From NCBI RefSeq assembly GCF_036227485.1, contig NZ_CP109479.1:6820001-6884000 (forward strand): a DNA stretch of 64,000 nucleotides, given 5' to 3'. Shown here in pieces: positions 5,184-30,526 of the stretch. The stretch comes from Streptomyces sp. NBC_01451. Lineage in GTDB: Bacteria; Actinomycetota; Actinomycetes; Streptomycetales; Streptomycetaceae. Both the position numbers and the translations under genes were made by a program. Within the stretch, counting starts at the first letter, position 1; each line of letters starts with the position of its first letter. Below the pieces are notes generated by a model. That model saw only the letters and a program-made list of their open reading frames with translations, was not told where the DNA came from and made no database searches.

Positions 5184-5252
5184 GATGGCACTCCTCGTCT
5201 GTCCGGTGTCGGCCTTGGGAGCGGCGAGCGGGTACATCTGTCGGGCAGTTCG

Positions 5253-12067: not shown

Positions 12068-12110
12068 GAGAACTCTGAGAACTCTGAGAAGTTGAGAAGT
12101 GGAGAACCCC

Positions 12111-14040: not shown

Positions 14041-14113
14041 TGCGCTGCTCCAGGTCGGGCGGTACGGCGGACGTACGACTCGACAGAAGGTACGGGCGGG
14101 CAGTGGGCCGCGT

Positions 14114-15211
14114 TCACAGCCAGCCGTTGCGTTTGAAACCGCGGTGGACGAAGAAGCAGGCGGTGGCGATGACGGAGAGGACGAGCGGGTAGCCGAAGCG
14201 CCAGTGCAGTTCGGGCATGTGCTCGAAGTTCATGCCGTAGATCCCGCAGACCATCGTCGGTACGGCGACGATCGCGGCCCACGCGGTGATCTTCCGCATG
14301 TCCTCGTTCTGGCCGACGGTGACCTGGGCCAGGTGGGCCTGGAGGATCGAGTCGAGCAGGGCGTCGAAGGCGTGGATCTGCTCGGTGGCGCGGATCAGAT
14401 GGTCGGACACGTCCCGGAAGTAGGCCTGTATCGACGGTTCGACGAACGGCGTCGGCTCCGTGGCCAGCTGCTGCAGGGGGCGGCCGAGGGGGACCACCGC
14501 CCGCTTCAGTTCGAGGAGTTCACGCTTGAGCTGGTAGATACGGCCGGCGTCGGCGGTGCGCGGGCTCTGGGGGGAGAAGACGTCCGACTCGACCTGGTCG
14601 AGGTCGTCCTGGACGGCGTCCGTGACGTTCAGGTAGTCGTCGACGACATGGTCCGCGATGCCGTGCAGCACCGCGGCCGGGCCCCTGCCGAGCTGCTCCG
14701 GGTCGGACTCCAGATCCTCGCGCAGCGGGCCCAGGGAGCCGTGTCGGCCGTGCCGGACGGTGACGACGAAGTCGGGCCCGGCGAAGACCATGATCTCGCC
14801 GGTGGTGACGACCTCGCTGGTCGCGGTGAGCTCCTCGTGCTCGACGTAGCAGACCGTCTTGAACACGGCGAACAGGACATCGCCGTACCGCTCCACCTTG
14901 GGGCGCTGATGCGCCTGGACGGCGTCCTCGACGGCGAGCGGGTGCAGTCCGAACAGTTCGGCGACGCGGGCGAACTCCGTCTCGGAGGGCTCGTGCAGCC
15001 CGAGCCAGACGAAGCCGCGGTTGTGCTTGCGGACGCGGGCGACGGACTCCTCGACGGTCGGGGCGGTGGGCTGGCGCACCCCCTCGCGATAGATCACACA
15101 GTTGACGACGGTCGAGCCGAGCGGTGAGCGGGCGGGGTGACTGAGGTCCACCCGCCGCCGCCCACGCCGAGCCAGGCGGGCCACTTTGCGCAGGCTGCCG
15201 ACCATCGACAT
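14114..15211 (-). CDS. CorA-type magnesium/cobalt transporter
   Basis: 365 residues with the CorA plan: a long soluble N-terminal domain, a long helix (residues about 200-300), then two C-terminal membrane segments. The signature YGMNF at the end of the first segment is present (VCGIYGMNF), which marks the pore selectivity motif. Role: divalent cation uptake in the plasma membrane as a pentamer. I chose the ATG at 15211, which has an AAGGAG ribosome site; an ATG 34 codons earlier has none. Confidence 0.9.
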   Translation of the reverse strand: MSMVGSLRKVARLARRGRRRVDLSHPARSPLGSTVVNCVIYREGVRQPTAPTVEESVARVRKHNRGFVWLGLHEPSETEFARVAELFGLHPLAVEDAVQAHQRPKVERYGDVLFAVFKTVCYVEHEELTATSEVVTTGEIMVFAGPDFVVTVRHGRHGSLGPLREDLESDPEQLGRGPAAVLHGIADHVVDDYLNVTDAVQDDLDQVESDVFSPQSPRTADAGRIYQLKRELLELKRAVVPLGRPLQQLATEPTPFVEPSIQAYFRDVSDHLIRATEQIHAFDALLDSILQAHLAQVTVGQNEDMRKITAWAAIVAVPTMVCGIYGMNFEHMPELHWRFGYPLVLSVIATACFFVHRGFKRNGWL

Positions 15212-15601
15212 GCGGTTTGCTCCTTCTCCGGGTCCGGACAGTGTGCCAGGTGGGGGTAAAGGGCTGGTCAGGGGAGACGCCGTGGGGGATCTCGCCCACG
15301 CCGCCCGTCCCACCCCGTACCCGGGGGCGCTCCCCCAGACCCGGGTCGCGCTGCACGCGCTTGTCCTCAGGTGCCTTCAGAGAAGGCACCCCAGGACTGG
15401 CCGGGGGTGCGGGCCCGGCGCTGTAGGGGTACCGCCCGGGTTGTGGAGGCAACGCGGGCGAGAGGGTGCGAAGGAAAGTGTGGACGGCCCGGGCCCAGAC
15501 GCCCTGCCGGACATACCAGTTTCGCCCTCCGTGTATTCGGGCAAGGACAGGGCAGCGTGGTCCCGGTCGAGCGAGTCGGCCAGGGGGAGGGGGACTCTGC
15601 G

Positions 15602-16483
15602 GTGGTGCCGGACCATGTGCGGACCGTGGACGGGCGGCGACTACGGGTCGAGATCTCAGGTGACCCCCACGGACACCCCGTGTTCCTCCTGCACGGCACA
15701 CCCGGCAGCCGGGTCGGCCCCCGTCCGCGTGCGATGTTCCTGTACCAGCGCGGCGCCTGTCTCATCAGCTACGACCGCCCCGGATACGGCGGTTCGGACC
15801 GCAAAGCGGGGCGCCGCGTCGCCGATGTGGTGCAAGACGTCACCGTGGTCGCCGACGCCATGGGGATCGACCGGTTCGCCGTGGCCGGGCGTTCCGGCGG
15901 CGCACCGCACGCCCTCGCCTGCGCCGCCTTGTTACCGGACCGGGTGACCCGCGCCGCCGCGCTGGTCGGGCTCGCGCCGAGAGACGCGGAAGGGCTCGAC
16001 TGGTTCGCGGGCATGGCGCCCTCCAACGTCAGCGAGTTCCAGACCGCGTTCACCGATCCGGAGCGGTTCGTGGCCCGGCTGATCCCACGCTCGGCGGCCA
16101 TCCGGAGCGATCCGACGAAGCTGCTCGAAGACCTGCGCCTGGAACTCACCGATGACGACCGGATGATCGTCTCCGACAATGCCATCCGCTCGATGCTGCT
16201 GCGCAACTACCGTGAGGCGTTGCGCACTTCACCGTACGGCTGGATCGACGACGCCCTCGCGCTGACCGGCCCGTGGGGCTTCGACCCGGCGCAGATCGAT
16301 GTGCCGGTGCTGTTGTGGCACGGGGGGAAGGATGTCTTCTCGCCCGCCTCGCACTCCTCCTGGCTCGCGGCCCGTATCCCAGGCGCCACAGCCGTCCTGG
16401 AACCGGCGGCGGCCCACTTCGCGGCCCTGCGCGCGCTGCCTGCCGCGCTCAACTGGCTACTCAGGGAATCCCCTACGCGCTGA
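15602..16483 (+). CDS. Alpha/beta hydrolase
   Basis: 293 residues. The oxyanion strand FLLHGTPGS, the nucleophile elbow GRSGGAP (Ser) and a late His in AAHFAALR give a complete alpha/beta-hydrolase triad. The GTG at 15602 is preceded by a GGGGGAGGGGG stretch; the frame runs far upstream but that part is arginine-rich and noncoding in character. Substrate unknown. It converges on fxsT, with 24 bp between the stops. Confidence 0.8.
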   Translation: MVPDHVRTVDGRRLRVEISGDPHGHPVFLLHGTPGSRVGPRPRAMFLYQRGACLISYDRPGYGGSDRKAGRRVADVVQDVTVVADAMGIDRFAVAGRSGGAPHALACAALLPDRVTRAAALVGLAPRDAEGLDWFAGMAPSNVSEFQTAFTDPERFVARLIPRSAAIRSDPTKLLEDLRLELTDDDRMIVSDNAIRSMLLRNYREALRTSPYGWIDDALALTGPWGFDPAQIDVPVLLWHGGKDVFSPASHSSWLAARIPGATAVLEPAAAHFAALRALPAALNWLLRESPTR

Positions 16484-16507
16484 TTCGCATACCCGGAGGC
16501 CTGGTTC

Positions 16508-19500
16508 TCACACTGCCAGTGGTTCCAGGTCCCGGTACACACGCCGCCTTTCGCGCACGAACACCGTGATCCCATTCTCGTCGCCGAGTAACAGCCGAAG
16601 CTCTGTCAGCGCATCGCCGTGCCGCCGTGCCGCCTCGCTCTGGCGGCCCAACTCGCTCAGAGTGAGGGCCGAGTTGGCGACGACTGCCAGTGTCTCCGGA
16701 TGGTGCGGGCCCAGCACCTTGCGCAGACTCATCATGGCGTTCTCCTCCAGGTCCCGGGCCTCGTCGAGGCGGCCCTGGTCGACCAGGACGTTGGCATAGT
16801 TGACGCCGCAGAACAAGGAGTGCGGGTGCTGCTCACCCAGCACCGTTCGCATGCGCCCCAACACTTGGCGGAACACTGCGGCAGCCTTCTCCGTGTCGTC
16901 GCAACCCCAGTGATAGATACCGAGGTTGTTCAGCGCGGCCTGGGTGTACGGGTGTTCTTCGCCCGGTACGTCCTTGTACTTGGACAGCGCCTCTTGGGCG
17001 ACTTCGCGCGCTGCCTCCCGCTCGTTGGCCGCGAAGAGGTCGGCTGCCATGTTCAGGTCGCAGGCCAGCGAGTCCGGTGTCGGTTCCTGGTACTGGGCCT
17101 GGTACTGGGCACGGGTTGCCGTCGTCAGTCTGCGCGCGTCCTCGAGTTGGCCGTCCCGGCGCAGCGATACGGCCAGGGACTTGGCGCACCTGAGAGTGCC
17201 CGGGAAGTCCTTTCCCAGGATCAGTTTGTGCGCGTCGTAAGCCTGGGACAGCACCGCCACCGACTCCGCGTACTTCCCGACCTCACGCAGGTCGCGTCCC
17301 AGCCGTTCGGCTGAGGCCAGGGTGTAGGGGTGCTTGGGACCCAGCACCCGCATACGCCGGTCGAGTGTCTCCTGGTCGATGTCGCGGGCCTTGCTGTAGC
17401 GGCCCACCATGCGCAGCGCGAGGGCGAGGTTGTTGGCCGCGCTCAGAGTCCTGCGGTGGGACTCGTGGAAGATCTGGCTGAACCCCTCGTGCGCCTCCTG
17501 GGCGAGATTGACCGCCTCGCTGTAGTCGCCTAGGGCCGCGAGGTCGCTCGCGAGGCTGGAGGTGGTGACGTAGGTATGCGGGTGCGAGGCTCCGAGTACG
17601 CGGCGCTGGCGGGCCAGCAGACCCCTGTCGATGTCCCGTGCCTCGATGTAGCGCCCCTGCGAGCGCAGCACGTTGGCTAGCTGGCACTGCAGGTACAGGT
17701 ACTGGACGTCGTCCTCGCCGAGCAGTGGTTTCCAGTGCTCCAGCAGGTCCTCGGCACGTTTCTGCGCGGTGGGGAAGTCGCCGCGTTTCCAGTAGTAGCG
17801 GACCCGGTCGATGAGCAGTCGGCGGGTCTCGGCCTCGGTGCAGTTGCTGGCGTCGGAGGCGGTGAGGTGCGGCCAGATGACCCCGAACCGGGGCCAGGTC
17901 GCGGGGTCGTCGATCGGCTCGTCACCGTCGGGACGGGCACCCGCGAGCACCATGTGCACAACGTGCCGGGCGTGCCGCTGCTCCTCCTCTGTCAACTGCG
18001 CACGGATCACGGCCTGGACCAGGCGGTGTACCTGGATGCTGTTGCTGACCTGGTCGACCTTGGCGAGCGCGAACCGCCCGATCTCCTGGACGACCCGGCC
18101 GAGCAGCAGCGGCTCCTGGAGCGCCGGGTCGTACGGCTTGAGAGCGTCGATCATCTCCTTGCTGTAGAGCAGGTCCGAGGAGATCGGCTCCGGAGCCAGG
18201 AACGCGCACAACTGCAGGAGCCGTACCGAGGCGGGAGAACGTTCCTTCAGCCGGGAGATGGACACGTTCCAGGTCGCTGCAACTGTCCTCGGGTAGTCGG
18301 CGGGCTGGTTGAGGTCCAGGACATCGGTGGTCTGCTCAGCCAGCTGCCGCAGATATGTCTTGACCGGCGTGGCCGTCTCGGCCAGCCAGGCCGCCGCCTG
18401 CTCGACGGCCAGCGGCAGGTCGCCCACCGCCAACGCCACTTGGTCGGCCGCCTCGGGGGTCAGCCCTCTGGCCCGTCGTGTGAGGTGTTCGACGCTCTCC
18501 TCGCGGAGGAAGACATCGACGAGTTGCGCCGAGCCCTGTTGTGCCCAGGCCTGGTTGCGAGAAGTGACGAGAATGTGCCCGCTGCCACCGGTCGGGAAGT
18601 ACGGAGTCAGTGCGGCCGGGTCGTCGGCGTTGTCGAAGACCAGCAGCCAGCGGTTGGTCGGGGTGCCCCGGGACAGCATCTGGCGGGCTTCCTTGCTCGC
18701 CATGGTGATGTCCTCGCGCCCGGGTGCGCCGATGCGGGTGCCGAGTTCGGCGAGCGAGGCGACGACATCGTCCTCGTGCTCGGCCGACGTCCACCACACC
18801 AGGTCGTAGTCACCCATGAAGCGGTGTACGTACTCCAGTGCGACCTGGGTCTTGCCCACACCACCGAGCCCGAACAGGACCTGGGGCTGCGAGGGGCCCG
18901 CGGGGACACCCCCGCCGAGTTGGTCGCGGATCCGCTCCAGAATGACGTTGCGCCCGGTGAACGTGTTGTTGCGCTGCGGTGCGCTCAGATACGCCGGAAT
19001 GTTGCCGGGGAAACGGGCCGCGTGCGGGCCGGCCTCCAGTGCCTGCCCCGGCAGGCCCAGGGCGCGCAGCAGCGCGGCGGCGCACTGCGCCTCGTCGAAC
19101 CGGTGCAGGTCCACGGGGTTGTGGTCGAGGTAGGTCTCGGGCAGCCGCACCTCGTCGACCCGCAGCGGAACCGTGGTACCGGGCGGGGTGTCCGCGCTGC
19201 TGCCAGTGAGGGTGCGCCAGACTGTGTCGGCGTACCGGGACTTCTGGAACGCGGTTGACAGCAGAATCAGTGTGCGGGTGGCCGCGTCCGTGCGCTCGAC
19301 GGGCCCGCCGGAGATGTCGTGCGGCACGACGTTGCAGCCGACCCGCTTGAGCAGCGACTCGACCCAGTCGGCCCACATCCGGTTCTCCGCCGAGTACGCC
19401 ACGACCACATTGGCCGCGCTGGTCAGTGGGCGCCGCCTTAGGTACGCGTCGCGGCAGCGCAACCGCACCGGCTCGGGGATCGCCGGCAGCGAGGTGACGT

Positions 19501-20443
19501 CGTCGTCGGTGATGACCCGGGTGAGCCGTTCGAACGCGGACAGCAGTGACTTGGGGTCGCCCTTCGTGTCACCGAAGGTGGCGAGGGTCTCCTCGTACGC
19601 GTAGTAGGGGCGGTAGGGGATCTCGACGCTGCCCCAGTAGGCCGTCAGCTCGTCCGGGCCCAGTTTCTCGCCTTTGAGTCCCCTGGGCAGCCCCTGGAAG
19701 CGCAGCTGGGCCAGCGCCCGGCCGGCGTCGACCTTGTCCTTCTCGCCCTCGTCGATGCGCATCGGCACGGGCAGTACCCGGATGGGGTGAGGGAGGGAAC
19801 CGTCCTCGACGCTGCGGGCCACCGCGGCACCGCCGTCCAGCGACTGGTCGCTCAGCGTGAAGCAGTCGACCAGGACATCCGGCATCTGCATGGTGCAGAT
19901 GTCCGCGTTGTCGGACAGCCCAGTTCGGCTGTCGATCAGGACGTAGTCGTACGACTTCTTCATGTTGGCGCGCAGCGCCTTGAGGAAGGCGCCGCCGCCC
20001 AGCCGGTCGTAGAAGTTGTCCCATTCCAGGGAGGACACGGTCGCCGAGTAGGCGCGGTCCTGACGGCCCGCAGACAGGAAGTCGAGCGAACCGCCGTCCT
20101 TGAAACTCAGCCCGAACCGCTCCGGGGTGAGGGAGATGGCGTGCTGCTCGACGTTCGCGTAGTCGTCCTGCCAGTCGCCGGAGCGCTGCGGGCCGGTCGT
20201 CGCGGCCCACGCGAAGTCATGAATGATGTTGATGACTCCGGTGGTGGCCACCAGCGCGTTGGGCTCCAGGAACGGGTGGAAGAAGCGGTGCAAGCCCGGC
20301 GCCTCCAGGTCCCAGTCGACGGCCAGGACCCGCTTGCCGTTCGCGGCGAGGATCCACGCTGTGTTGGCCAGGGCCATCGTGCGCCCAGTACCGCCCTTGT
20401 ACGAGTAGAAGGTGATGATGCGTCCGTTCTGCACGGCCGTCAT
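16508..20443 (-). CDS. fxsT: FxsT: ParA/MinD-like, TIR, NB-ARC and TPR protein
   Basis: 1311 residues with four parts. Residues 1-330 are a MinD/ParA-type ATPase with the deviant Walker A KGGTGRT (16-22) and YDYVLIDSRTGLSD (165-178). Residues about 345-460 look like a TIR domain (NVVVAYSAENRMW; TLILLSTAFQKSRYADTVW). Residues about 485-790 are NB-ARC, with P-loop GLGGVGKT (525-532) and a WLLVFDNADD Walker B. From about residue 900 to the end are tetratricopeptide repeats with LGxxHPxT signatures. Proteins of this kind are annotated as the FxSxx-COOH system TPR protein. It is the last gene of the fxs unit and overlaps fxsC by ATGA. The architecture resembles plant NLR and bacterial STAND immune proteins; a switch role is inference. 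Confidence 0.88.
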   Translation of the reverse strand: MTAVQNGRIITFYSYKGGTGRTMALANTAWILAANGKRVLAVDWDLEAPGLHRFFHPFLEPNALVATTGVINIIHDFAWAATTGPQRSGDWQDDYANVEQHAISLTPERFGLSFKDGGSLDFLSAGRQDRAYSATVSSLEWDNFYDRLGGGAFLKALRANMKKSYDYVLIDSRTGLSDNADICTMQMPDVLVDCFTLSDQSLDGGAAVARSVEDGSLPHPIRVLPVPMRIDEGEKDKVDAGRALAQLRFQGLPRGLKGEKLGPDELTAYWGSVEIPYRPYYAYEETLATFGDTKGDPKSLLSAFERLTRVITDDDVTSLPAIPEPVRLRCRDAYLRRRPLTSAANVVVAYSAENRMWADWVESLLKRVGCNVVPHDISGGPVERTDAATRTLILLSTAFQKSRYADTVWRTLTGSSADTPPGTTVPLRVDEVRLPETYLDHNPVDLHRFDEAQCAAALLRALGLPGQALEAGPHAARFPGNIPAYLSAPQRNNTFTGRNVILERIRDQLGGGVPAGPSQPQVLFGLGGVGKTQVALEYVHRFMGDYDLVWWTSAEHEDDVVASLAELGTRIGAPGREDITMASKEARQMLSRGTPTNRWLLVFDNADDPAALTPYFPTGGSGHILVTSRNQAWAQQGSAQLVDVFLREESVEHLTRRARGLTPEAADQVALAVGDLPLAVEQAAAWLAETATPVKTYLRQLAEQTTDVLDLNQPADYPRTVAATWNVSISRLKERSPASVRLLQLCAFLAPEPISSDLLYSKEMIDALKPYDPALQEPLLLGRVVQEIGRFALAKVDQVSNSIQVHRLVQAVIRAQLTEEEQRHARHVVHMVLAGARPDGDEPIDDPATWPRFGVIWPHLTASDASNCTEAETRRLLIDRVRYYWKRGDFPTAQKRAEDLLEHWKPLLGEDDVQYLYLQCQLANVLRSQGRYIEARDIDRGLLARQRRVLGASHPHTYVTTSSLASDLAALGDYSEAVNLAQEAHEGFSQIFHESHRRTLSAANNLALALRMVGRYSKARDIDQETLDRRMRVLGPKHPYTLASAERLGRDLREVGKYAESVAVLSQAYDAHKLILGKDFPGTLRCAKSLAVSLRRDGQLEDARRLTTATRAQYQAQYQEPTPDSLACDLNMAADLFAANEREAAREVAQEALSKYKDVPGEEHPYTQAALNNLGIYHWGCDDTEKAAAVFRQVLGRMRTVLGEQHPHSLFCGVNYANVLVDQGRLDEARDLEENAMMSLRKVLGPHHPETLAVVANSALTLSELGRQSEAARRHGDALTELRLLLGDENGITVFVRERRRVYRDLEPLAV

Positions 20444-21798
20444 GCTTCTCCTCCGTTATCGGGTCCCGCTTCCGGGTACCGCGGCTGGATGGGGCCCGTC
20501 AGACGGGGTCTGGGGATGTGCGGGCCCGGTGGCGGATGTGCCTCCGCGTGCTTGAGGAACTGCCGGGTCGTATGGGCCACGACGGCGGGCAGCACGTCGG
20601 TGAAGGCCTTGAGTGTGGGCACCCCGGTCACGGCGATCCGGCAGTCGGTGCGCCGGCCCCGGTCCAGGATCAGCGGAAGGGTGCGCTCCAGCTCCTCGGT
20701 GAGTTGCCGCCCCTCCGAACTGTGACACTGCAGGTCGAGACGGTTCCACGGGACGATCGCGCTCACCCAGGGTCGGGCATGGGAGTCGAAGGTCCTGAGC
20801 CGCCGACGCCGCTCCTGGTCGGTCAGCACCCATCGGTCGACCAGCAGGATGCCTGGTCTGCCCATTGCCTTGTCGTCTTTGTCACCATGATCGCCACTGT
20901 CGTCCGGGGAGCCGCCGACGGGCGGCGTCGGCGGCTCCCCGGTGTCCTCGTCGTCGAACGAGGAGACCGTTATCCGGTAGTCGAGGGAGCGGATGAGTTC
21001 CTCGGCAAGCGACGGCAGTGGACGCGTGGACTCGCCGTGGTACGGATTCCAGTCCTGGGCTTCCTCGCCGTACGGCCGGATGTCGCGGTGCTCGGGGACG
21101 CTGTCCCGGGTCGGCGCGGCCACGGTGAGGTGGATGTGTCTGGGGCCGGAGCCGCGCGGCTTGAAAGCGCTGGGTGTGTTCTCGTAGTTGCGGGGCCTAC
21201 TCGGTGGCAGTGGCGACTCGTGGGCGACCCGCACGATCCGCTGCGCAAGCCCCAGCACGGTCTCCTCGTACTCGTCGTGCAGTCGGTTGAGTTTGATCAG
21301 GCCGTAGATCCCGTTAGTGGCGTAGCGGTCGCCGTAGGTCGCGTGGTCGAGGTGGATGTGCCGGACGGAGTCCGGTAGTTGGTCGTAGTCCACGCGGGTC
21401 CACATGGCGGGGACAATGGCGGACGTCGCCCCTGAGCCGGTGGCCTTGGCATGCAGAACACGTTCGTGGAAGGCGAACCACTCGCGCCCGCACATCTCGC
21501 TGGTGAAGTAGCGGGGCGAGAACAGCGGTACGAACACCCGACACCTGGCCAGGTTCTCGCTGAGCTTCTCCGGCCAGCCCTCTCCGGAGCGCATCTCCCG
21601 GTCCATGAACCCGGCCTGGGAGCCGGCGGGCAGATCCGTGAGCGCCATGATGTGGTTGCACAAGTCCCGGTACAGGACATGCACCCAGTGATCGGGGTCT
21701 CCGCCACCGGTCCCCCAGGGGGGTGTGTGGGCGTAGGAAAGGAAGAAATAGGGCTGGGTGTCCGGTATCCGGTCCCGACCCCGTTCGGTGTTGTCCAC
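20440..21798 (-). CDS. fxsC: TIR-like protein FxsC
   Basis: 452 residues. The first 200 are TIR-like: YFFLSYAH (17-24), FMDREM (64-69), a helix WPEKLSENLARCRVFVPLFS, and SPRYFTSEMCGREW, in which Glu106 lies where NAD-cleaving TIR domains have their catalytic glutamate. A Pro/Ser/acidic linker (about 205-325) follows. The last 130 residues form a second domain (GILLVDRW..., WVSAIVPWNR) that I do not recognise. The GTG at 21798 has a GGGGGG ribosome site. It lies 93 bp after the acetyltransferase gene and overlaps fxsT by 4 bp, so FxsC and FxsT are made together. Catalytic activity is not established by sequence. Confidence 0.85.
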   Translation of the reverse strand: MDNTERGRDRIPDTQPYFFLSYAHTPPWGTGGGDPDHWVHVLYRDLCNHIMALTDLPAGSQAGFMDREMRSGEGWPEKLSENLARCRVFVPLFSPRYFTSEMCGREWFAFHERVLHAKATGSGATSAIVPAMWTRVDYDQLPDSVRHIHLDHATYGDRYATNGIYGLIKLNRLHDEYEETVLGLAQRIVRVAHESPLPPSRPRNYENTPSAFKPRGSGPRHIHLTVAAPTRDSVPEHRDIRPYGEEAQDWNPYHGESTRPLPSLAEELIRSLDYRITVSSFDDEDTGEPPTPPVGGSPDDSGDHGDKDDKAMGRPGILLVDRWVLTDQERRRRLRTFDSHARPWVSAIVPWNRLDLQCHSSEGRQLTEELERTLPLILDRGRRTDCRIAVTGVPTLKAFTDVLPAVVAHTTRQFLKHAEAHPPPGPHIPRPRLTGPIQPRYPEAGPDNGGEA

Positions 21799-21891
21799 AC
21801 GCCCCCCTGCCCGTCGGTGGACCCCGCCGCCGCGGCCACCTGACCGGAACCAACAATGTGCCCGACGGTTGGCTTGCCCGGGTTGCTTGTT

Positions 21892-22668
21892 TTACGTCAT
21901 TCCGCGTCCCAATCCGGACATTTGATTGCAGGCATGGTCCACGGCGGCTCGCATCCTGAAGAACGTGACCGTTTTCCCGGCCCATTCCCCCTCTACCGTC
22001 AGTTCACGCGGTAGCCGTGCTCCGATCGCACCGAAGTCGCCGTCGTACAGGGCGACATCGTCGTACGAGATCCAGTTTCCCCTCTCGCCCACCACACACC
22101 GGTACGTACGCCGACGTGCGTGCGGCCTCGTCCGGTACTCGGCTAGATGGAACGCGCTGCACACCTCGAACCCGACGCGCAACAGGAGGACTTGGGCATC
22201 TGCGTCATACAGAGTGGCTGTGGGGGACTGCTCGCCGAGATGACAGTGCGGATCGTGCCCGCTGAGCAACTCCGCAGCCCTGGGGCCGATCCCGGCGAAC
22301 GAGCTCTGCGGATGTGCGCTGCGCACGGCACCGGGAGTCGTACGCACACACTCGGCGAGCGCACCCATGGAGTGGCAGGGCGTGGCATCCGGGTCGAAGG
22401 GGGACATCGAGGCGCGGAAGTCGACTTTTTCTTGCTCGGTCATGTCCTCGGTGCGGACCTTGTGCGCATTCGAGGTGTCGGAGTTCTCGGGAGTGAAAGC
22501 AGGCACAATGAGCGTACCGGCCGGGCCCAGGGCGGCAAGGAGCGTGTTCCGGACCAGGAGAGGGCTCATGCCGGTGCCGCTGAGGGAGGCGTGGACGAGG
22601 AGGGGGGTGGTAGTGCGGCGGAGGCCCAGATCACGACACAGTCGGCGTAGCGGCTCGGCCTCAGTCAT
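21892..22668 (-). CDS. AAC(3)-like acetyltransferase in the fxs locus
   Basis: 258 residues of the aminoglycoside N3-acetyltransferase fold. The family motifs are present: LLVHASLSGTG near the start, SMGALAE, HPQSSFAGIGPRA, and the GxxSPTATLYDADAQVLLLRVGF...HLAEYR block with the conserved His and Glu. I chose ATG 22668 because it overlaps the end of fxsB by 8 bp, which is typical of coupling; the longer frame to 22848 lies inside fxsB. In this setting it may acetylate the FxsA-derived peptide or a small ligand rather than an antibiotic. That is inference; drug resistance cannot be excluded. Confidence 0.85.
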   Translation of the reverse strand: MTEAEPLRRLCRDLGLRRTTTPLLVHASLSGTGMSPLLVRNTLLAALGPAGTLIVPAFTPENSDTSNAHKVRTEDMTEQEKVDFRASMSPFDPDATPCHSMGALAECVRTTPGAVRSAHPQSSFAGIGPRAAELLSGHDPHCHLGEQSPTATLYDADAQVLLLRVGFEVCSAFHLAEYRTRPHARRRTYRCVVGERGNWISYDDVALYDGDFGAIGARLPRELTVEGEWAGKTVTFFRMRAAVDHACNQMSGLGRGMT

Positions 22669-24859
22669 GGCTGTCCACACACACGGCCCACTCCGCCCGC
22701 AGCTCGGCAGCCAGCATCGCACCGGTCTCCGTGAGGTCCTGCTCGGGAAGCCTCGCCAACTCGTCCAGGGCACGGTTCGCCTGCTCCAGCGCGTGAACGC
22801 GGCCGTTGGCCCTGCTGTCCTCCTCATTTTCCCAGTACGCGGCGTCACCGAGTGCGAAGAAAGCCTCGTCGAGCAGCCGCCCGGCCCTGTTACCGGGTAC
22901 GTTTAGGTCCGTCGTCTCCCGCAGCGCGGCGAGCCTGGCGTGTCTCCCGAGGCGTGGCAACTCACGTGCGAACTCCATCGGTTCGAAGTCGACGGCTACG
23001 CCGAGTGCGCCCAGTCCGTGGGATCCCAGGTGCAGGGATGCCCCGGCAGCGAGCGGGGTGATGGTAGTGGCGCGGAACGCGTTGATGCCGGTAAGCCATC
23101 CAGGCTTGCGTTCTTCCAGTAGTTCGTATGCGGTCCGTAGCCGCTCGCGGAACGAGATGAGCCCGTTGTGGTCCAGCGGGGGAGCAACAGCCACGGGGTA
23201 CGCGTCACGGTAGGGGTCACTGTCGTCGATGAGCAGCGCCTCTCCACTGGGGAGCCACAGCTGCACCAACGGCCGCCATGCGTCGGGATTTTGCGCGAGT
23301 AGGTATTCGTTGCCCCCCGTCATGCGCAACAGCAGGCCGTCCACAGTCACCGTTGCTTCGACTCGGCCGGCCTCGGGAGCCGTCAACGTTCCCAGCGTCG
23401 GCAGGTGAACGTCGGGACGGGATTGTTCCCAGGCAAGGGTCAACGGCGCGCGCGCGTGCACGGCCACGGCGACGGCCACGGCTGCGAAGCGGGCGACCTC
23501 GTCGGCCCCAGGTCCGCCACGGCGAAGCGAAGTGCGTACGTAGGGGTGGGCCAGGACTCTGTTGAGGTGCCACGCGCTGTCCTCGTCGCTGTCCAGTCGG
23601 ACCAGAGCCTGCCACACGGTGTCCCAGTCCGCGTTCCCGGTAAGGCGCTCGTTGGTCTGAGCGAGCAGGTCCCGGTCCAGCCTGAGCTGGGCGAAGCTCA
23701 GTTCACCTGGGTCGGTCACGGCGGCGGACAGTGAGCGTTCGGTGATCCGCTTGGCGGCGCCGCCGATGAACGCACGCAGGTCAGCGCAGAATACCGATGG
23801 ATTGTCGAAGCCGTGACCGGTGCGGTACCGGTGTGCGTACAGGCCGCCGCCGCAGGATTCGACGACCGGGCATCGGCGGCAGGTCTCACTGACCCCGGCC
23901 AACCCGCGCTGGCGAGCGAGCACCCCCTCGTGTAGGGCGAATTCCTCGAAGCCGTTCCGCGACACGTCGTACCCCGTGGCAGCCGCCCCGTCGAACGCAG
24001 TCTTGAGCGAGTCCGCCTGCTCGAAACTGCCGTCCGTCTCCACCACCGCCAGGTCGGACGGGGCGAGCCCCATGGCCTCGGTCAGGCTGGGACCCCCACG
24101 CAGCGTGCTGAGCACGGAGTCGAACGTTCGGACAGGGACCTTGCGGCCTTGCAGCTCCCAGCGGTCGAAAACAGCGAGCAGCCAGTCGGCATAGGGAGTC
24201 GGTGAGTTGACACCACGTGACGGGGGAGGGTTGTCCCAGGTCGAGTGTGGCAGCAGATAGTCGATGCGGGGCGGCGACAAAGCGGTCAGTGCCTCGTGTA
24301 CCGCGACAGGGTCGTTGGCCACGTCGACGGTGCACAGCAAGCCGCTGAAGAGGTGCTGGTATTCGGGTGTCTGGACGAGGCGGACGGCTCGGAGCACGCG
24401 CTCGTAACTACTCCGCCCTCTGCGGTCACGTCGGTGTCGGTCGTTGGCTGCCCTGTCACCGTCGAGTGAAATACTGACCTTCACTCCGAATTCCTTGAAA
24501 ATCTCCAGGTGGCGATTGCTCAGTTGCACGCCGTTGGTGTGAATTCGAAGATCGAGCGTGGTGATTGGCGTGAGGGCGGCACTGATTTCCCCGCAAATCT
24601 TCCGTAGTCGATTGGGGCCCACCAGTAGGGGCTCACCGCCATGCAGAATAACTGAGAAGGATTCAAGGCCCTGAGACTTTACGTATTCGGTGATTCGGCG
24701 GGTGACTTGACTGAGTGTCTCCTCGGAGATCACGGTCGGCCGGGTTTTCCAGCTCTGGTCCGCATGCTCGTAGACGTAGCAGTGGTCACATGCCAGATCG
24801 CATCTGCTGTGGATCTTCAGGACGAGTTGCTGGAGTGGGAAGTCCGCGGAGTCAGTCAC
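22661..24859 (-). CDS. fxsB: FxsB radical SAM/SPASM maturase with inactive beta-hydroxylase extension
   Basis: 732 residues. The radical SAM cluster motif is C20-x3-C24-x2-C27 and is followed by YVYEHADQSW. SPASM-type cysteines lie at 327, 330, 336 and 358. FxsB enzymes make a cyclophane between the Phe ring and the Ser beta-carbon of the FxS motif in the precursor. Residues about 380-732 form an extension resembling the HExxH-type peptide beta-hydroxylases, but at the expected place the sequence is RLGRH (636-640), so the first His and the Glu are lost and the domain should be inactive. The GTG start lacks a ribosome site; TAGCCT ends 7 bp upstream, suggesting a leaderless message separate from fxsA. 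Confidence 0.9.
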   Translation of the reverse strand: MTDSADFPLQQLVLKIHSRCDLACDHCYVYEHADQSWKTRPTVISEETLSQVTRRITEYVKSQGLESFSVILHGGEPLLVGPNRLRKICGEISAALTPITTLDLRIHTNGVQLSNRHLEIFKEFGVKVSISLDGDRAANDRHRRDRRGRSSYERVLRAVRLVQTPEYQHLFSGLLCTVDVANDPVAVHEALTALSPPRIDYLLPHSTWDNPPPSRGVNSPTPYADWLLAVFDRWELQGRKVPVRTFDSVLSTLRGGPSLTEAMGLAPSDLAVVETDGSFEQADSLKTAFDGAAATGYDVSRNGFEEFALHEGVLARQRGLAGVSETCRRCPVVESCGGGLYAHRYRTGHGFDNPSVFCADLRAFIGGAAKRITERSLSAAVTDPGELSFAQLRLDRDLLAQTNERLTGNADWDTVWQALVRLDSDEDSAWHLNRVLAHPYVRTSLRRGGPGADEVARFAAVAVAVAVHARAPLTLAWEQSRPDVHLPTLGTLTAPEAGRVEATVTVDGLLLRMTGGNEYLLAQNPDAWRPLVQLWLPSGEALLIDDSDPYRDAYPVAVAPPLDHNGLISFRERLRTAYELLEERKPGWLTGINAFRATTITPLAAGASLHLGSHGLGALGVAVDFEPMEFARELPRLGRHARLAALRETTDLNVPGNRAGRLLDEAFFALGDAAYWENEEDSRANGRVHALEQANRALDELARLPEQDLTETGAMLAAELRAEWAVCVDSHD

Positions 24860-24866
24860 CTAGCAC

Positions 24867-24872
24867 AGGCTA
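24867..24872 (-). promoter_or_regulatory. Leaderless-type -10 element for fxsB
   Basis: TAGCCT on the minus strand fits TANNNT and ends 7 bp before the GTG of fxsB. TTGGCA stands about 21 bp further upstream, a long spacer for a -35. No Shine-Dalgarno sequence is present. Confidence 0.4.
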
Positions 24873-25319
24873 CAGCTCGTGGCTACCCCTGACTGCCAAT
24901 CGGATGTTCGACTCATCGCCGGAACGCGGCCATTGAGGATGCCCTCCCGTGCCCGGTGGTGTGCTTGGCGCAGCTGGGAAGCATTGGATCAGGGATATTC
25001 CGGGAGTGGCGGGCCGGTGAGGCGAAAGGCTGAAGAAGTCCCTCTCACCAGGGGTTATGGGAGGCAGGTCGTCTTCAGGAGATCTTGCGTACGGGCGGGG
25101 TCGCCTGCGAACTGCGGTTATAGTGAACCGACTCTGAGTGTGCGGGGCCTGGCTCCGGCTGGCGGCCGGAGCCAGGCCCCGCGCGTGGAGTTACCGAAGC
25201 GGGTCCGGCCGACTAGGAAACGGCCGGGCTCGCTTCATGTGAACCCTGCCTCGTCCGCACCGTACTTGGGTCGCCGTGCCCTCAGCGAGCCAGCGTCTCC
25301 ACGCAACCTGCAACCGCTG
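24873..25319. other. Intergenic region between fxsB and the small ORF
   Basis: Nothing here resembles a known gene. It holds a strong hairpin (25142-25182, listed separately) and, just upstream of it on the minus strand, a 15-codon reading frame (25232 to 25185) with a weak AGGCAGGG site, too short to call. The base composition is less GC-rich than in the genes around it. Confidence 0.5.
25142..25182. terminator. Perfect 17-bp stem hairpin in the fxsA-fxsB gap
   Basis: GCGGGGCCTGGCTCCGG and its exact complement are separated by a 7-base loop. There is no T-run on either side. It may be an intrinsic-like terminator or an RNA-processing structure for minus-strand transcripts arriving from fxsA or the small ORF. 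Confidence 0.6.
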
Positions 25320-25442
25320 TCACGGCTGCGAGAACTGCGATCTAGAGCCTTGCCCTGATCGGGTCGAAGCTCGGGCTGTTTTCTTCCTGCGGTTCCTGCT
25401 TTCGGCCGCTGCCTGGCTGTTGTTCAGGTTCTCGCCCCTCAT
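25320..25442 (-). CDS. Candidate small ORF, 40 aa, very basic
   Basis: An ATG at 25442 is preceded by a near-perfect Shine-Dalgarno (AAGGAG, 6 bp away) inside a purine-rich run. The 40-residue product has a central basic patch (RNRRKK) and ends QFSQP. It lies on the same strand as the fxs genes, between fxsA and fxsB. It is not an FxSxx peptide because the Phe is at position -4. The strong ribosome site is the only firm support; codon bias cannot be judged at this length. It could be a second small peptide of the locus or chance. Confidence 0.35.
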   Translation of the reverse strand: MRGENLNNSQAAAESRNRRKKTARASTRSGQGSRSQFSQP

Positions 25443-25506
25443 TCCCTTCTCCTTCCTCGTTTATATGTCTCACCCTCCACTAATGATTCCCGGCGGGCCG
25501 GGACAA

Positions 25507-25559
25507 CCTCGACTATTGCACAGGTCGAACTTCTCCTGGCCATTGTGCAAGACGAGGTG
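25507..25559. repeat. Imperfect inverted repeat
   Basis: Arms CCTCG-N4-TTGCACA and TGTGCAA-N3-CGAGG flank about 22 bp. This lies just upstream of the small ORF on the minus strand and could be a regulator site or a weak hairpin. Confidence 0.4.
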
Positions 25560-25636
25560 CTTATGGAGTGAAGGGGAATGGGGTGGCGTCAGTGTACCTG
25601 CGAACGCCACGAGTTCAGGGTCTGTCAGCAAGCGAG

Positions 25637-25696
25637 AAAAACCGCTTCGAAGCGGGCGCGGTGCACCTGCCGGACCATAACAGGTGCAGCCGCTTC
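25637..25696 (-). terminator. Terminator behind fxsA
   Basis: Read on the minus strand, GAAGCGG and GCACCTG arms pair with CAGGTGC and CCGCTTC, giving nested 7-bp stems, and a second palindrome CCGCTTCGAAGCGG runs into TTTTT. It lies 15 bp after the fxsA stop. This should end or reduce transcription between fxsA and fxsB, leaving an abundant short precursor message. Confidence 0.7.
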
Positions 25697-25710
25697 TGAA
25701 AGGGGTAATT

Positions 25711-25890
25711 CTACAATGCGGAGTCGAAGGTGATCGGCTTCACGGAACGCCTGCCCGAGGTGTCTGTCAATCGGCCGGTGGACCTCATGGCAGTGCCTTC
25801 GCGGGTGTTGATCGCGGCCAGCGGAGTGAGCCGCCGGCGGGAGGTCCGGGTAGCGGCGGATCCGCGTTCCGTGGTCGTCGATGGGTTCAT
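25711..25890 (-). CDS. fxsA: FxsA: FxSxx-COOH RiPP precursor peptide
   Basis: 59 residues, Ser/Thr/Arg-rich, ending in the free carboxy-terminal motif FDSAL, which matches FxSxx-COOH exactly. An upstream PLAAINT segment (near residue 23) may be the leader recognition part. The ATG at 25890 has GGAAACGAGAG upstream; a longer in-frame start at 25917 is less likely. Known chemistry of the family predicts a three-residue cyclophane joining the Phe ring to the Ser beta-carbon, made by FxsB. The gene reads away from the DUF4231 gene and is followed by its own terminator. Whether the peptide is cleaved, secreted or kept inside is not visible; there is no signal peptide. Confidence 0.85.
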   Translation of the reverse strand: MNPSTTTERGSAATRTSRRRLTPLAAINTREGTAMRSTGRLTDTSGRRSVKPITFDSAL

Positions 25891-26044
25891 CTGTCTCTCG
25901 TTTCCTGTCGCAGGCACCAGTATGTCCCCGGGCCCATGGGGAGTTGCGGGGACAGTCTGGTTTTGACGCGGACGATACCGGAGGCCGACCCCGGGGATGG
26001 ACCCTGCCTGTTCGACTTCATACTCTGGTGACGGAAAGTGGGCA

Positions 26045-26980
26045 ATGATCGCGGGGGTGAGTCAATTGCGTGCCAGGACTCCGGGGCCCAGTGTCACGCT
26101 GAGTGACGGCGATCTTCCGCCGCTCTTCGTGGTAAGTGATCGGCGGGCGCTGAGCCGTCAGAGTGAGTCCTTCTACGCGGTGCGTACGCAATTGCTGCTT
26201 CTGCTAGCGGCGACGGCGATGGCGATGCTGGCGGAACGCTTCGACAGTCATATTCCAGCGGCATTGGCGGCAGTGCTTTACGCGTTCACGATAGCCATCG
26301 GCCTCCACACCGCCCGCCGCCGGGCCCGCGCCCAGTGGCGGGCGCACCGTGACGTGGCCGAGCTGCTCAAGTCGCTGGCCTGGCAGTACATGGTGCACGG
26401 GGGCCCGTTCCACTCCCGGGTTGCCGACCCCGACGGGCTGTTCGCGGAACGGCTGGAGGAGCGGCTGCGGGAACTCAGGCGGGTGGGGTGGGAGGACTCC
26501 CGCAACGGGACCCATACCCGTGGTGCCGGACAGATCACCCCGGTCATGCGGGCCGTGCGCGCCAAGCCCTTCGCCGCCCGCCGGGACATCTATCTCCGTG
26601 ACCGGCTGCTGGAACAGTTCGTGTGGTACAAGAATCGCGCCGCACAGTCGCATCGCGCCTCCGTGCGCTGGTCCTCGGTCACCGCCGCCCTGACGCTGCT
26701 AGCCCTCTTGGCCGCCGTTCTCAGGGCCCTCGGTATGATCGGCAGTTGGGATCTCACCGGGCTGCTCAGTGCCGGCGCGGCGGCAGGGGTCGCCTGGCAG
26801 GAGGTGCGGCGGCACAGGCCGTTGACATACGCGCACTCCCACATCGAACAGGATCTGGAGACGCTACGCGTCACGATGTCCAGGACGGTGACGGAGGCAG
26901 TGTGGGCGGAGGCGGTTGCCGAGGCCGAACGGATCGTGTCGCCGCAGCACACCGACTGGCTGGTGCGGTTCGGAGGGTGA
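26045..26980 (+). CDS. DUF4231 (SLATT-type) two-TM protein
   Basis: 311 residues. Two hydrophobic helical regions (about residues 45-85 and 215-250) flank a cytoplasmic helical domain of Arg/Glu-rich character. The last segment carries THIEQDLETLR-like and WAEAVAEAERI helices, as in DUF4231. That family belongs to the SLATT group, predicted membrane effectors that associate with nucleotide-sensing SLOG or SMODS proteins. I chose ATG 26045 for its GGAAAG ribosome site. It is divergent from fxsA with a 155-bp shared promoter region and convergent with a SLOG gene. A link with either is inference; the SLATT-SLOG pairing is a known theme. Confidence 0.8.
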   Translation: MIAGVSQLRARTPGPSVTLSDGDLPPLFVVSDRRALSRQSESFYAVRTQLLLLLAATAMAMLAERFDSHIPAALAAVLYAFTIAIGLHTARRRARAQWRAHRDVAELLKSLAWQYMVHGGPFHSRVADPDGLFAERLEERLRELRRVGWEDSRNGTHTRGAGQITPVMRAVRAKPFAARRDIYLRDRLLEQFVWYKNRAAQSHRASVRWSSVTAALTLLALLAAVLRALGMIGSWDLTGLLSAGAAAGVAWQEVRRHRPLTYAHSHIEQDLETLRVTMSRTVTEAVWAEAVAEAERIVSPQHTDWLVRFGG

Positions 26981-27162
26981 GGCTGAACACTCAACTGTCA
27001 CTCAGGGAGCGCAAGTCCGTCGATGCAGCAACCTCCACGGCCCAGGTGGCGACAGGCGGGCGTCGGAAACGGAAGTGTGAACTCCCGCACGAGAGTGATG
27101 ACCTGCGCAAGACCACCTGGTGAACCCTGCCGACAGCACCTGTCTGACCGGGGCGCTTCAGG

Positions 27163-27777
27163 TCAGATACGCAGCACCCCCGGCCGCCACAGCACCGTCA
27201 CCGGTACGCCCCTGCGCCGGGCGTACGCCACCACGTCCCCGGTGCCTCCGAGCCCCCGCGCGGGCTGCCCGTCCCATACCGCGATCAGTCGGTCGGCGTG
27301 GTCGACGATCCAGCGGCCCGCCGCGAAATAGGCCTCCTCGTGCGTCGCCTCCTCGGGCAGATTCACCTGCGTACGGCAGGAGTTGAGGAGGCGTCGGTAC
27401 GCGGCCCGGGTGTCGGCGTCGCCGAGGTGGGCCTCGTAGTCCATGCCGGGAATCACGGCCGTGACCGCGATGCCGCAGTCCAGGGCCATGTCGGCGAACA
27501 ACTGGTCGGCCCCGGCCGCGAGGCTGCTCAGGGCCTCGATCTCCTCGTCTCCCTGGAACTGCCGGCGGATGCCCGTGCGGACGAACGGCAGCACGGCGCC
27601 TGGGATCGAACGGTGTCCGGTCACCCCGATGCGCGTGCGCACACGCGCCACGACGCGCATGCCCGTACCGGTGGCCATACCAGTGGCCGTGCCGGTGTCC
27701 GTGCCCGTCCGGATGTCCATGTTCATGCCGATGCCCATGCCGACGCGAGTCCCGTTACGGGTGTCGATGTCAGTCAC
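27163..27777 (-). CDS. SLOG-family (Rossmann-like nucleotide-sensor) protein
   Basis: 204 residues. Signature segments are GVTGHRSI, LAAGADQLFADMAL, ADRLIAVWDGQPARGLGGTGDVV and a final VTVLW strand, the pattern of DprA-like SLOG domains that bind nucleotides or NAD-like ligands. The GTG at 27777 is well supported by GGAGGG 7 bp upstream. This makes the first 39 residues a Met/Thr/Gly/Asp-rich low-complexity stretch from a degenerate six-base repeat, an odd N-terminus for the family. An ATG at 27660 would remove it but has no ribosome site. It converges on the DUF4231 gene with 182 bp between. Confidence 0.75.
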   Translation of the reverse strand: MTDIDTRNGTRVGMGIGMNMDIRTGTDTGTATGMATGTGMRVVARVRTRIGVTGHRSIPGAVLPFVRTGIRRQFQGDEEIEALSSLAAGADQLFADMALDCGIAVTAVIPGMDYEAHLGDADTRAAYRRLLNSCRTQVNLPEEATHEEAYFAAGRWIVDHADRLIAVWDGQPARGLGGTGDVVAYARRRGVPVTVLWRPGVLRI

Positions 27778-27813
27778 TCGCTGTCCCTCCGCCGCCCACG
27801 GTCCGTGACCTCA

Positions 27814-29292
27814 CTACAGGGTGCCGTCTCCCAGCGGTGCCTGCCAGATCGCCGTCGTACCCGGACCTCCGCCCGTTGTGCCGCCGCCGCTGCCGCCATC
27901 GTCGTAGACCGTCAGCCGTACGCCCGACCGGCCGTCCGGCAGGACCGCCGTCGCGTCGACGGTGATCTCGACGCGGGTGACAGCGGGGCGGCGTACGGCG
28001 GTGGCGAGGGCGCGGCGAAGGGCGGTGAGGAGCTGAGCTGCCACCGCGGACGGGACGCGGTGCTCGACGGGGCCGGTGAACCGGACGGAGGGGCGGCGGC
28101 CGAGTACCGCCACCGCACCGGCGGCTTCCCGGAGTACCTTGCCGCGCAAGGTGGTTGGTGCGTCCGCCGGGGGCTGCTGGAGGGCGAAGATGGTCGTACG
28201 GACCTCCTGGACCGTGGCCTGGAGTTCGTCGACGGCGTGCTCAAGGATCTCGCACACCGTGTCGTCGCCCGCGGCCCGGCGCTGGGTGGACTCCAGCATC
28301 ATGCCGGTGGCGAACAGCCGTTGGACGACGAGATCGTGCAGGTCACGGGCGATCCGGTCGCGGTCCTCGTACACCGCCAGGCGGGCGCGACGCCGCCGGG
28401 CGTCGGCGAGGACGAGCGCGAGGGCGGCCTGCGAGGCGAACTGCGTCGCGAGAAGCCGTTCCACGTCGGTGTACGGGCGGTCACCGCGTCGGCGCGGCAG
28501 CGCGAGCGTGCCGATCAGCCGCCCCTCGGCCTGCAACGGCAGCAGCATGCTGGGCCCGAACCGGTGCCGTACCGGGGTCGTCATCCGTGGGTCCGTCGCC
28601 GAGTCGTCGACGAACACCGGTTCCCCGCCCAGGAGTTGGACGAGCACGGGACTTCCCGGGGCGATGGTGGTCCCGACGATGTCACCGGGGTCGTCCAGCG
28701 CGGAGGCGGTCACGATCTCCATACCGCCCGCGTCCGTCGGCTGCAGAATGACGCCCGCGGCGGCGTCGGCGAGGAGCCGGGCGCGGTGCGCGACGGTCAT
28801 CAGCGCGTCGTCGTCGGCCCCGCCGGTGAGCAGCGCGGTGGTGACGGCGGCGGCACCCTCGATCCAGCGCTCGCGCTGCCGTGCCGCCTCGTACAGCCGG
28901 GCGTTGCCGATCGCGATGCCGGCCTGCGCCGCCAGCACCTGAAGCAACTCCCTTTCCTCGTCGCCGAATCGGGTACCGTCCAGTTTCTCGGCGAGATACA
29001 GCCGCCCGAACTCCACGTCATCGACGAGGATCGGTACGTCGATGACGGTGACGCCCTCCCGTTCGGCGCGCCCCAGATCGGCCCTGCGGATCTCCACGAG
29101 GCCGTCGTGTCCGGGGTCGGCCATCCCGAATCCCGCGTACCGGGCACCGGTCAGTTCGGCCGCGCCGTCCACGATGTGCTGGAGCGTGGTGCGCAGTTCG
29201 AGATCGGTACCGATGCCGAGCACGGCTTCGAGACGGGGCGGCAGTGAAGGGGGAGGCGGGGGTGGGGGAGGTGGCGGCGCGTCGCCTGGCAT
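27814..29292 (-). CDS. GAF-domain histidine-kinase-like sensor with degenerate ATPase
   Basis: 492 residues: a poly-proline start, two GAF domains (about 25-140 and 155-305), a HisKA_3 phosphoacceptor segment RIARDLHDLVVQRLFATG (His near residue 325), and a C-terminal region where the ATPase should be. The dimer and His motif resemble the DevS/DosS group. In the ATPase part the N-box reads LTALRRALATAVRR, so the catalytic Glu and the Mg-binding Asn are missing, and the glycine lid is replaced by a Gly/Thr-rich run. The protein may bind ligands without autophosphorylating. No response regulator adjoins it. It lies 21 bp after mbl on the same strand. Confidence 0.8.
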   Translation of the reverse strand: MPGDAPPPPPPPPPPSLPPRLEAVLGIGTDLELRTTLQHIVDGAAELTGARYAGFGMADPGHDGLVEIRRADLGRAEREGVTVIDVPILVDDVEFGRLYLAEKLDGTRFGDEERELLQVLAAQAGIAIGNARLYEAARQRERWIEGAAAVTTALLTGGADDDALMTVAHRARLLADAAAGVILQPTDAGGMEIVTASALDDPGDIVGTTIAPGSPVLVQLLGGEPVFVDDSATDPRMTTPVRHRFGPSMLLPLQAEGRLIGTLALPRRRGDRPYTDVERLLATQFASQAALALVLADARRRRARLAVYEDRDRIARDLHDLVVQRLFATGMMLESTQRRAAGDDTVCEILEHAVDELQATVQEVRTTIFALQQPPADAPTTLRGKVLREAAGAVAVLGRRPSVRFTGPVEHRVPSAVAAQLLTALRRALATAVRRPAVTRVEITVDATAVLPDGRSGVRLTVYDDGGSGGGTTGGGPGTTAIWQAPLGDGTL

Positions 29293-29313
29293 GCGAGGGG
29301 AGATGCTGCCGGC

Positions 29314-30351: not shown

Positions 30352-30526
30352 GGCAGATCCTCCCGAGAGCGCAGACCGTACGGGCCACGCCGGTCGACGG
30401 GCCTCCACTGGCATCGTGCGGGGGGTGGGGGAGGGGGCGCCTGTTGTAGGGGGCCGGGCGGGGTGCCGCCGTATGGGTATTTTATCCTTTATGTCTGAAT
30501 TATGACCAAGGTCCTGAAGGGGACGG

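Follow-up and report, generated by a model that had tools for sequence, protein, structure and literature searches.

An FxSxx-COOH locus of Streptomyces joined to SLATT, SLOG and hydrolase genes as a candidate NLR-like conflict switch

The FxSxx-COOH (fxs) locus of Streptomyces sp. NBC_01451, whose genome is one contig of 10.27 Mb, was studied in a window of 64,000 nucleotides (NZ_CP109479.1, positions 6,820,001 to 6,884,000), to which the positions given here refer. Its five genes encode the precursor peptide FxsA, the radical S-adenosylmethionine (SAM) maturase FxsB, an AAC(3)-fold acetyltransferase (AAC), the TIR protein FxsC and the NB-ARC/TPR protein FxsT. Conservation extends past these five genes on both flanks, over 15371-16483 and over 25997-27777, and takes in an alpha/beta hydrolase (H), a SLATT membrane protein (S) and a SLOG-fold protein (X). 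As the fxs genes travel with proteins of nucleotide-sensor and membrane-effector type, they appear to be part of a complete circuit for cell suicide or defence that has the peptide among its inputs. With a probability of roughly 45%, we propose that these approximately eight genes form an intracellular conflict switch resembling the nucleotide-binding leucine-rich repeat (NLR) proteins, in which the TIR domain of FxsC would make a signal, the SLOG protein would read it, the SLATT protein would execute the response and a cyclophane-bearing peptide tail would provide the input.

The linkage on which this proposal is built was assessed in 121 genomes of the genus, among which FxsC is matched in 49 (43 over cut-off), SLATT_3 in 39 and PF02522 in 80 (E 1e-10), and in which the FxsT family reaches more genomes than FxsB does (114 vs 77, both at E 1e-60). 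Sixty stretches were fetched, comprising 45 long-FxsB loci (at least 540 bits, the window counted) and 15 others. Comparative genomics had been suggested in the original prediction as a check on co-occurrence, and in this check fxsB, fxsC and fxsT stand together in 41 of the 45 long-FxsB loci, the exceptions being L050, L062, L077 and L078. These 41 loci, again with the window counted, hold H in 40 (it is absent from L034), S in 30 and X in 29; the sole locus with S only, L063, has X some 11 kb away (L100, whose contig has the same length), apparently on the same chromosome. In 32 loci H is on the strand opposite to fxsT and at most 163 bp from its end, and in 8 it lies upstream of the operon. 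S adjoins fxsA/B in 22 loci and comes after fxsT in 8, and it is in those last 8 that H is found upstream. Other window genes served as controls in the 44 other long-FxsB loci, where CorA recurs in none, the histidine kinase in 1, the MreB-like gene in 4 and the gene at 30527 in 2; at 60 bits the same loci give 40 for H, 29 for S and 28 for X. For CorA, 35 of the 40 stretches with fxsT reach far enough (2.4 kb past fxsT) to be informative; the stretches end about 2.0-3.4 kb past fxsT, so that the window genes at 12099, 10140 and 11381 fall outside their reach. H has no match in the 15 stretches that are not long-FxsB loci.

The association is also visible from the side of the added genes. Of 40 SLATT_3 places (a 41st row, a second fragment in genome G022, was excluded), 31 have a long fxsB or a listed fxsT no more than 9 kb away, and the tally of SLATT_3 against fxs by genome (31/10/8/72) gives a Fisher p of 4e-13, uncorrected for relatedness. 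Named genome contigs were also searched with X alone, and the best 80 of 559 confirmed relatives, a sample of the nearest ones that shares some genomes with the first sample, were accompanied by S in 77, fxsB in 67, fxsC in 62, fxsT in 61 and AAC in 52. Among the 66 of these best 80 loci that span at least 15 kb, S is present in 63, fxsB, fxsC and fxsT in 57 each and AAC in 45. H was seen in 17 of the best 80 because it usually lies past the fetched end. The pair S-X is joined to divergent fxs types as well, namely that of L079, with a short FxsB, and that of L134/L135, in which the order is C-T-B-AAC and FxsB and FxsC are 47% and 26% identical. In a class-wide sample of 296 genomes, all nine X matches above 200 bits fell in genomes of the genus that also have FxsC.

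S carries SLATT_3 and SLATT_1 domains at 164 and 134 bits (Pfam cut-offs 26.3), and SLATT proteins have been predicted to be membrane effectors in nucleotide-dependent conflict, regulated by ADP-ribose (ADPr), with TIR-SLATT neighbourhoods in phages (PMC9503650, in the passages concerned). X gave no Pfam match at E 0.01 and a sequence-only PDB search with it was empty; its model is a single SLOG domain of 157 aa whose fold matches SLOG proteins, including the SLOG domain of ThsA. H shows a weak similarity to prolyl aminopeptidase (46 bits). As for the five core genes, FxsB, FxsC and the FxSxx_TPR protein FxsT all score above their NCBIfam cut-offs for the FxSxx-COOH system. The order fxsA, fxsB, AAC(3)-like, fxsC, fxsT on one strand that had been proposed earlier agrees with the coordinates, including overlaps of 8 bp between fxsB and AAC (22661-22668) and of 4 bp between fxsC and fxsT (20440-20443), and the product classes proposed for fxsB, fxsC, fxsT and the acetyltransferase hold. 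The precursor is a mixed case: its FDSAL tail and its position fit, and its family score lies under the cut-off. No vWA-MoxR (VMAP) gene was found among the flanking proteins scanned, which are a subset of the window genes.

Table 1. Features of the fxs locus and its surroundings in the window
Feature	Position	Strand	Basis
3' part of a second FxsT-family gene, belonging to the neighbouring second fxs locus	1-1623	+	NF040586, 600 bits
H, alpha/beta hydrolase, convergent with fxsT, conserved part from about residue 80	15371-16483	+	PF00561, 67 bits
fxsT, ParA-like (KGGTGRT), degenerate TIR, NB-ARC and TPR	16508-20443	-	NF040586
fxsC, N-terminal TIR domain (about 15-194) with Glu106, plus C-terminal domain	20440-21798	-	NF040588, TIGR04276
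AAC(3)-fold acetyltransferase	21892-22668	-	PF02522, 213 bits
fxsB, radical SAM/SPASM cyclophane-forming maturase, C-terminal extension with HExxH lost	22661-24859	-	TIGR04269, NF040587
Perfect 18-bp inverted repeat (hairpin) in the fxsA-fxsB gap	25142-25182		
fxsA, precursor, 59 aa, C-terminal tail FDSAL (ends KPITFDSAL)	25711-25890	-	TIGR04268, 24.5 bits (cut-off 28)
S, membrane protein with SLATT_3 and SLATT_1 domains, divergent from fxsA, predicted effector	25997-26980	+	PF18184, PF18181
X, SLOG-fold protein, convergent with S, conserved part 27166-27636	27163-27777	-	Fold comparison

FxsB scores 580 bits to TIGR04269 (cut-off 370) and 326 bits to NF040587, which describes the extension with a lost HExxH, and its CxxxCxxC motif is conserved across the 44 aligned rows. 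An active beta-hydroxylase or leader peptidase in this extension was considered and rejected, the HExxH being lost and the extension poorly conserved in the same 44 rows. Upstream of fxsB, a same-strand open reading frame (ORF) ending in F-x-S-x-(L/I/V/M), followed by no more than one Gly, was found in 39 of the 45 long-FxsB loci with the window counted, and L064 (FNSGV), whose radical-SAM motif was missed by a later search pattern, makes a 40th; the loose match of L062 (FPNI) was excluded from the tail comparison. Among 488 open fragments on the opposite strand of these stretches, only 2 end in a looser pattern, and FxsA-type tails upstream of fxsB thus exceed chance. In these loci the tail is conserved and the leader variable, and the motif Ser is followed by two residues up to the C-terminus (by three in L041 and L046). 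IPR026335, the family of the maturase MscB, we take to be that of FxsB. According to a review (PMC11002830, in the part concerned), MscB joins Phe C4 to Ser C-beta.

The gap between fxsA and fxsB is long here, at 851 nt (24860-25710). From tail stop to radical-SAM motif the distance is 893 nt, compared with at most 268 nt in the other tail-bearing loci except L133 (S. ipomoeae), which at 1086 nt has the sole other gap near 1 kb seen. Given this length and the perfect inverted repeat within it, a single fxsA-fxsB operon is not assured. A mobile insert was considered for the gap and discarded, as the genome holds no second full copy and the hairpin matches only itself; comparison with 124 other loci gave no match to the gap sequence at E 1e-5, and no Rfam family was found over 14000-28500.

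FxsC reaches 232 bits to NF040588 (cut-off 130) and 159 bits to TIGR04276 (cut-off 55), has a TIR fold that most resembles those of SPARTA and AbTir, and retains the catalytic glutamate (E106) in 37 of 39 rows; the two rows without it belong to tandem-FxsC loci whose partner copy has it. These two loci, L066 and L076, each hold one FxsC gene with the TIR glutamate and one without, possibly an active and inactive TIR pair. On its fold and its helix C glutamate, FxsC is predicted to be a catalytic TIR NADase. It also occurs as the C-terminal domain of other large proteins, as in L088, L090, L091 and L092, where it lies at or near the C-terminus (L088 and L092, the two scanned, have a SAV_2336 N-terminal domain), which marks it as an exchangeable domain and possibly an effector. 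FxsT matches NF040586 at 1021 bits (cut-off 300) and NF047398 at 140 bits, with AAA_KGGVGR, TIR_2, NB-ARC and TPR/TPR_12 domains, and the PADLOC candidate-defence profile PDC-M28B also matches it (76 bits). Its NB-ARC P-loop GLGGVGKT is intact, each position being kept in 39-40 of 40 rows, and its TIR domain has lost the catalytic glutamate, with V, L or I in 38 of 40 rows at a hand-placed position. AAC conserves the motifs RS.HPQ and FHLaEYR in 28 rows; a role as an aminoglycoside resistance enzyme was ruled out on score (NF033082, 99 bits vs a resistance cut-off of 270). As it is present in just 26 of the 41 loci with fxsB, fxsC and fxsT, 24 times between fxsB and fxsC and twice elsewhere, AAC is optional.

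From gene content, conserved linkage, the SLOG and TIR folds and the retention and loss of motifs, all computed here, we infer the role of the peptide and all activities of the circuit as follows. FxsB would join the Phe and the Ser of FxsA's FDSAL tail by a crosslink, and the tail would remain within the cell, where FxsT may read its fixed free C-terminus. TPR domains elsewhere bind free C-termini, which makes the TPR part of FxsT a natural candidate for the tail reader. In FxsT, the NB-ARC would act as gate and the TPR as sensor, with the dead TIR and the ParA-like domain as a presumptive scaffold. A disturbed state, such as infection, would lead FxsT to assemble and to activate FxsC, which would then cleave NAD into a signal of the ADP-ribose type. 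X would sense this signal through its SLOG domain, and S, with its double SLATT, would breach the membrane, the endpoint being probably growth arrest or cell death; AAC and H might tune or reset the peptide or the signal. A more specific version is doubtful in our estimation: the cyclophane-bearing ribosomally synthesised and post-translationally modified peptide (RiPP) would be the 'all is well' self-signal of a bacterial NLR, and loss of, or attack on, either this peptide or its maturation would fire the TIR-SLOG-SLATT chain and breach the membrane, as in a guard system.

Several observations weigh against the switch as we propose it. S and X are both absent from 11 of the 41 loci with fxsB, fxsC and fxsT, and no replacement membrane effector was recognised there, by eye and hydrophobicity only. 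The alignment of Glu106 of FxsC with the CLDEL glutamate of RUN1 comes from a weak match (E 0.75), and the ParA-like Walker A of FxsT is altered. The modules are also met apart. FxsC neighbourhoods were examined for 66 of 81 rows (59 over cut-off and the next 7, with 15 weaker rows left out); fxsB lies within 12 kb in 54 of them (44 long, 10 short), 2 have a listed fxsT only and 10 stand alone among the matches listed. Five of these ten were fetched, of which L089 has an adjacent FxsT and the others are the long proteins described above. FxsC and FxsT occur without a nearby fxsB in G011 (L087), G105 (L089) and G096:C47 (L086). In S. geranii (L098), X, S, fxsC and fxsT are followed by CorA, fxsA, fxsB, AAC and H were not found, and the approximately 255 bp between S and fxsC hold no F-x-S tail. 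In S. lacrimifluminis (L097), X and S are followed by the CorA neighbour of the window with no fxs genes, and X-S without fxs is likewise seen in L099, L106, L120 and L128; X without S in reach is found in L100, L115 and L143. In the class-wide sample, FxsC goes unmatched in 36 of the 59 genomes where the X family is matched. Finally, FxsC has 0 matches in 50,697 phage records and 5 in 72,556 plasmids, counts on which carriage by plasmid or phage was rejected, and 37 of the best 80 of 559 X loci have an MreB-like gene next to X. The last point indicates that part of the linkage comes from one inherited chromosomal site and not from a mobile defence island. The original prediction had staked itself on fxsA, fxsC and fxsT not occurring independently of fxsB; for fxsC and fxsT this fails in L086, L087, L089 and L098 and holds in 54 of the 66 FxsC places, so that the link is strong and not obligatory, and modules persist apart. 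Its reading of the locus as an immune switch is favoured by the TIR fold and glutamate of FxsC, the P-loop of FxsT, the PDC-M28B match and the linked SLATT and SLOG proteins, and a modified peptide may, as it proposed, license or restrain that switch.

Of the alternatives, one takes up the interpretation given by the authors of the eLife 2020 study, in which release of the modified tail would itself supply the toxin, amplifier or signal, with FxsT and FxsC controlling its deployment. It has been stated for FxSxx systems (PMC7159879, in the relevant passages), and H, with its weak aminopeptidase similarity, could process the peptide. We consider it unlikely, in that the extension of FxsB is of the inactivated HExxH form, neither a leader peptidase nor an exporter is among the conserved members found, and a motif kept at a set distance from the C-terminus could serve recognition just as it could release. 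Similarly improbable, to our judgement, is a non-immune regulation built from the same parts, which would serve multicellular actinomycetes as a checkpoint in development or under stress. Such a checkpoint would account for the one chromosomal site in many species, as marked by the MreB-like neighbour, for the want of FxsC matches in the phage records and for FxsC being commoner in the genus (10 of 28 genomes) than in the rest of the class sample (24 of 268). Moreover, fxsT and the H ORF hold one TTA codon each. The checkpoint is at odds with a patchy presence, FxsC being over its cut-off in 43 of the 121 genus genomes, and with differing fxs types beside the same MreB-like and histidine-kinase genes. 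This flank (window 27814-30414; also L043, L082 and L087) borders other fxs types too: L082 is of the short-FxsB type and L087 has FxsC-FxsT without FxsB, as if one site had seen a turnover of fxs versions.

That S, X and H are mere syntenic neighbours, inherited with the site and outside the fxs system, we regard as quite improbable. The loci with X-S and no fxs and the recurrent MreB-like border speak for it; nonetheless S-X and H swap operon sides yet stay attached, S-X is tied to several fxs architectures, and, at an identity of at least 50%, the other flanking genes in reach recur in only 0-4 of 44 loci. Least probable is a standard RiPP cluster making a secreted triceptide, beside which the TIR and NB-ARC genes would lie by chance or for regulation; this would suit the place of FxsB in the cyclophane maturase family and the Phe-Ser links made by MscB (PMC11002830, in part) and sits poorly with the 41 of 45 long-FxsB loci that hold both FxsC and FxsT, with the naming of both families after the FxSxx system in NCBIfam and with the finding of no transporter among the conserved locus members.

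The genome carries further fxs loci, and the only FxsC match in it at E 0.001 is that of the window. A second locus (L003:11022-16623) lies partly outside the window, with its FxsB and precursor genes just past the window edge and its near end about 14 kb from H. It encodes a short FxsB with no extension (L003:11022-12263, TIGR04269 464 bits), an FxsT-family protein of 1244 aa and a precursor (L003:12481-12807, TIGR04268 40 bits) ending in HSESL; the tail of this precursor, GNPFVTGHSESL, has no FxSxx at the very end despite the 40 bits. Beside this locus, on the minus strand at 2787-5237 and 5337-7025, are two large ATPase-like proteins (AAA, NACHT or STAND) with sub-threshold Pfam matches. 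In a third locus, near 1.99 Mb (L093, genome 1983000-2001000), an FxsT-family gene stands between two short FxsB genes. Among plasmids, matches H1 and H3 are FxsC domains of large proteins beside AAA and MoxR ATPase genes; a Kitasatospora plasmid has an FxsC protein beside a MoxR gene, and L175 was grouped with these cases of a late FxsC domain and MoxR. X-like SLOG proteins were found in 39 plasmid and 11 phage records, all at less than 60% identity, and on a stretch of an Agrobacterium Ti plasmid (L176) one that is 49% identical lies beside TIR, caspase-family and CHAT-domain genes.

Should the proposed switch be correct, one locus would unite cyclophane RiPP chemistry, NLR-like NB-ARC/TPR switches and TIR-SLOG-SLATT nucleotide signalling. 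The likely output genes of FxSxx systems are thereby named, which gives a testable order of epistasis, and L097, with no fxs genes, and L098, with fxsC and fxsT and with fxsA and fxsB not found, offer natural evolutionary controls for the need of the peptide. The general idea is already in print: loci with FxSxx peptides, AP-ATPases and an inactive MinD/ParA domain have been predicted to be conflict systems, the peptide being a toxin or a signal (PMC7159879, in the passages that treat them), and SLATT-SLOG and the hydrolase as members of FxSxx systems are what is added here. That paper, whose main text mentions SLATT three times, each time in one of two passages about GAP1 GTPase systems, is the only relevant open-licence paper found to contain both 'radical SAM' and 'SLATT'. 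A search of the open-licence literature found no paper joining FxSxx with SLATT or SLOG, and an earlier mention elsewhere is possible.

With the triceptides (the products of XncB, OscB and MscB) the present locus shares the maturase family, and its F-x-S fits the Phe-Ser link of MscB (PMC11002830, in part); unlike the triceptides, it keeps a near-fixed distance from motif to C-terminus and has NLR and TIR partners and no exporter among its conserved members, and its own product is a predicted one. It is closest in its parts to the actinobacterial FxSxx-COOH/peptide-processing AP-ATPase systems, with the precursor tail, the SPASM radical SAM enzyme, the AP-ATPase/TPR protein with TIR and the altered MinD/ParA domain, and departs from them in SLATT-SLOG and the hydrolase, which are absent from the pertinent passages of PMC7159879, and in the inactivated HExxH. 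In common with the TIR-SLATT/SLOG conflict modules (PMC9503650, in the sections on them) are the SLATT gene adjoining a TIR gene and SLOG as a sensor of ADPr derivatives, whereas here a cyclophane RiPP and an NLR-like protein are combined with them. In Thoeris, ThsA is a SLOG domain fused to an effector domain such as SIR2, and ThsB supplies the TIR. The pairing of a TIR that has its catalytic glutamate with a SLOG protein, and the predicted NAD-derived signal, are alike in the two; in contrast, the SLOG here is separate, beside a SLATT membrane protein and with no SIR2 fusion, and an NB-ARC gate and a RiPP are added. With X a single SLOG domain and FxsC as its TIR, the locus lies outside the definition of Thoeris, and it may work in a Thoeris-like manner.

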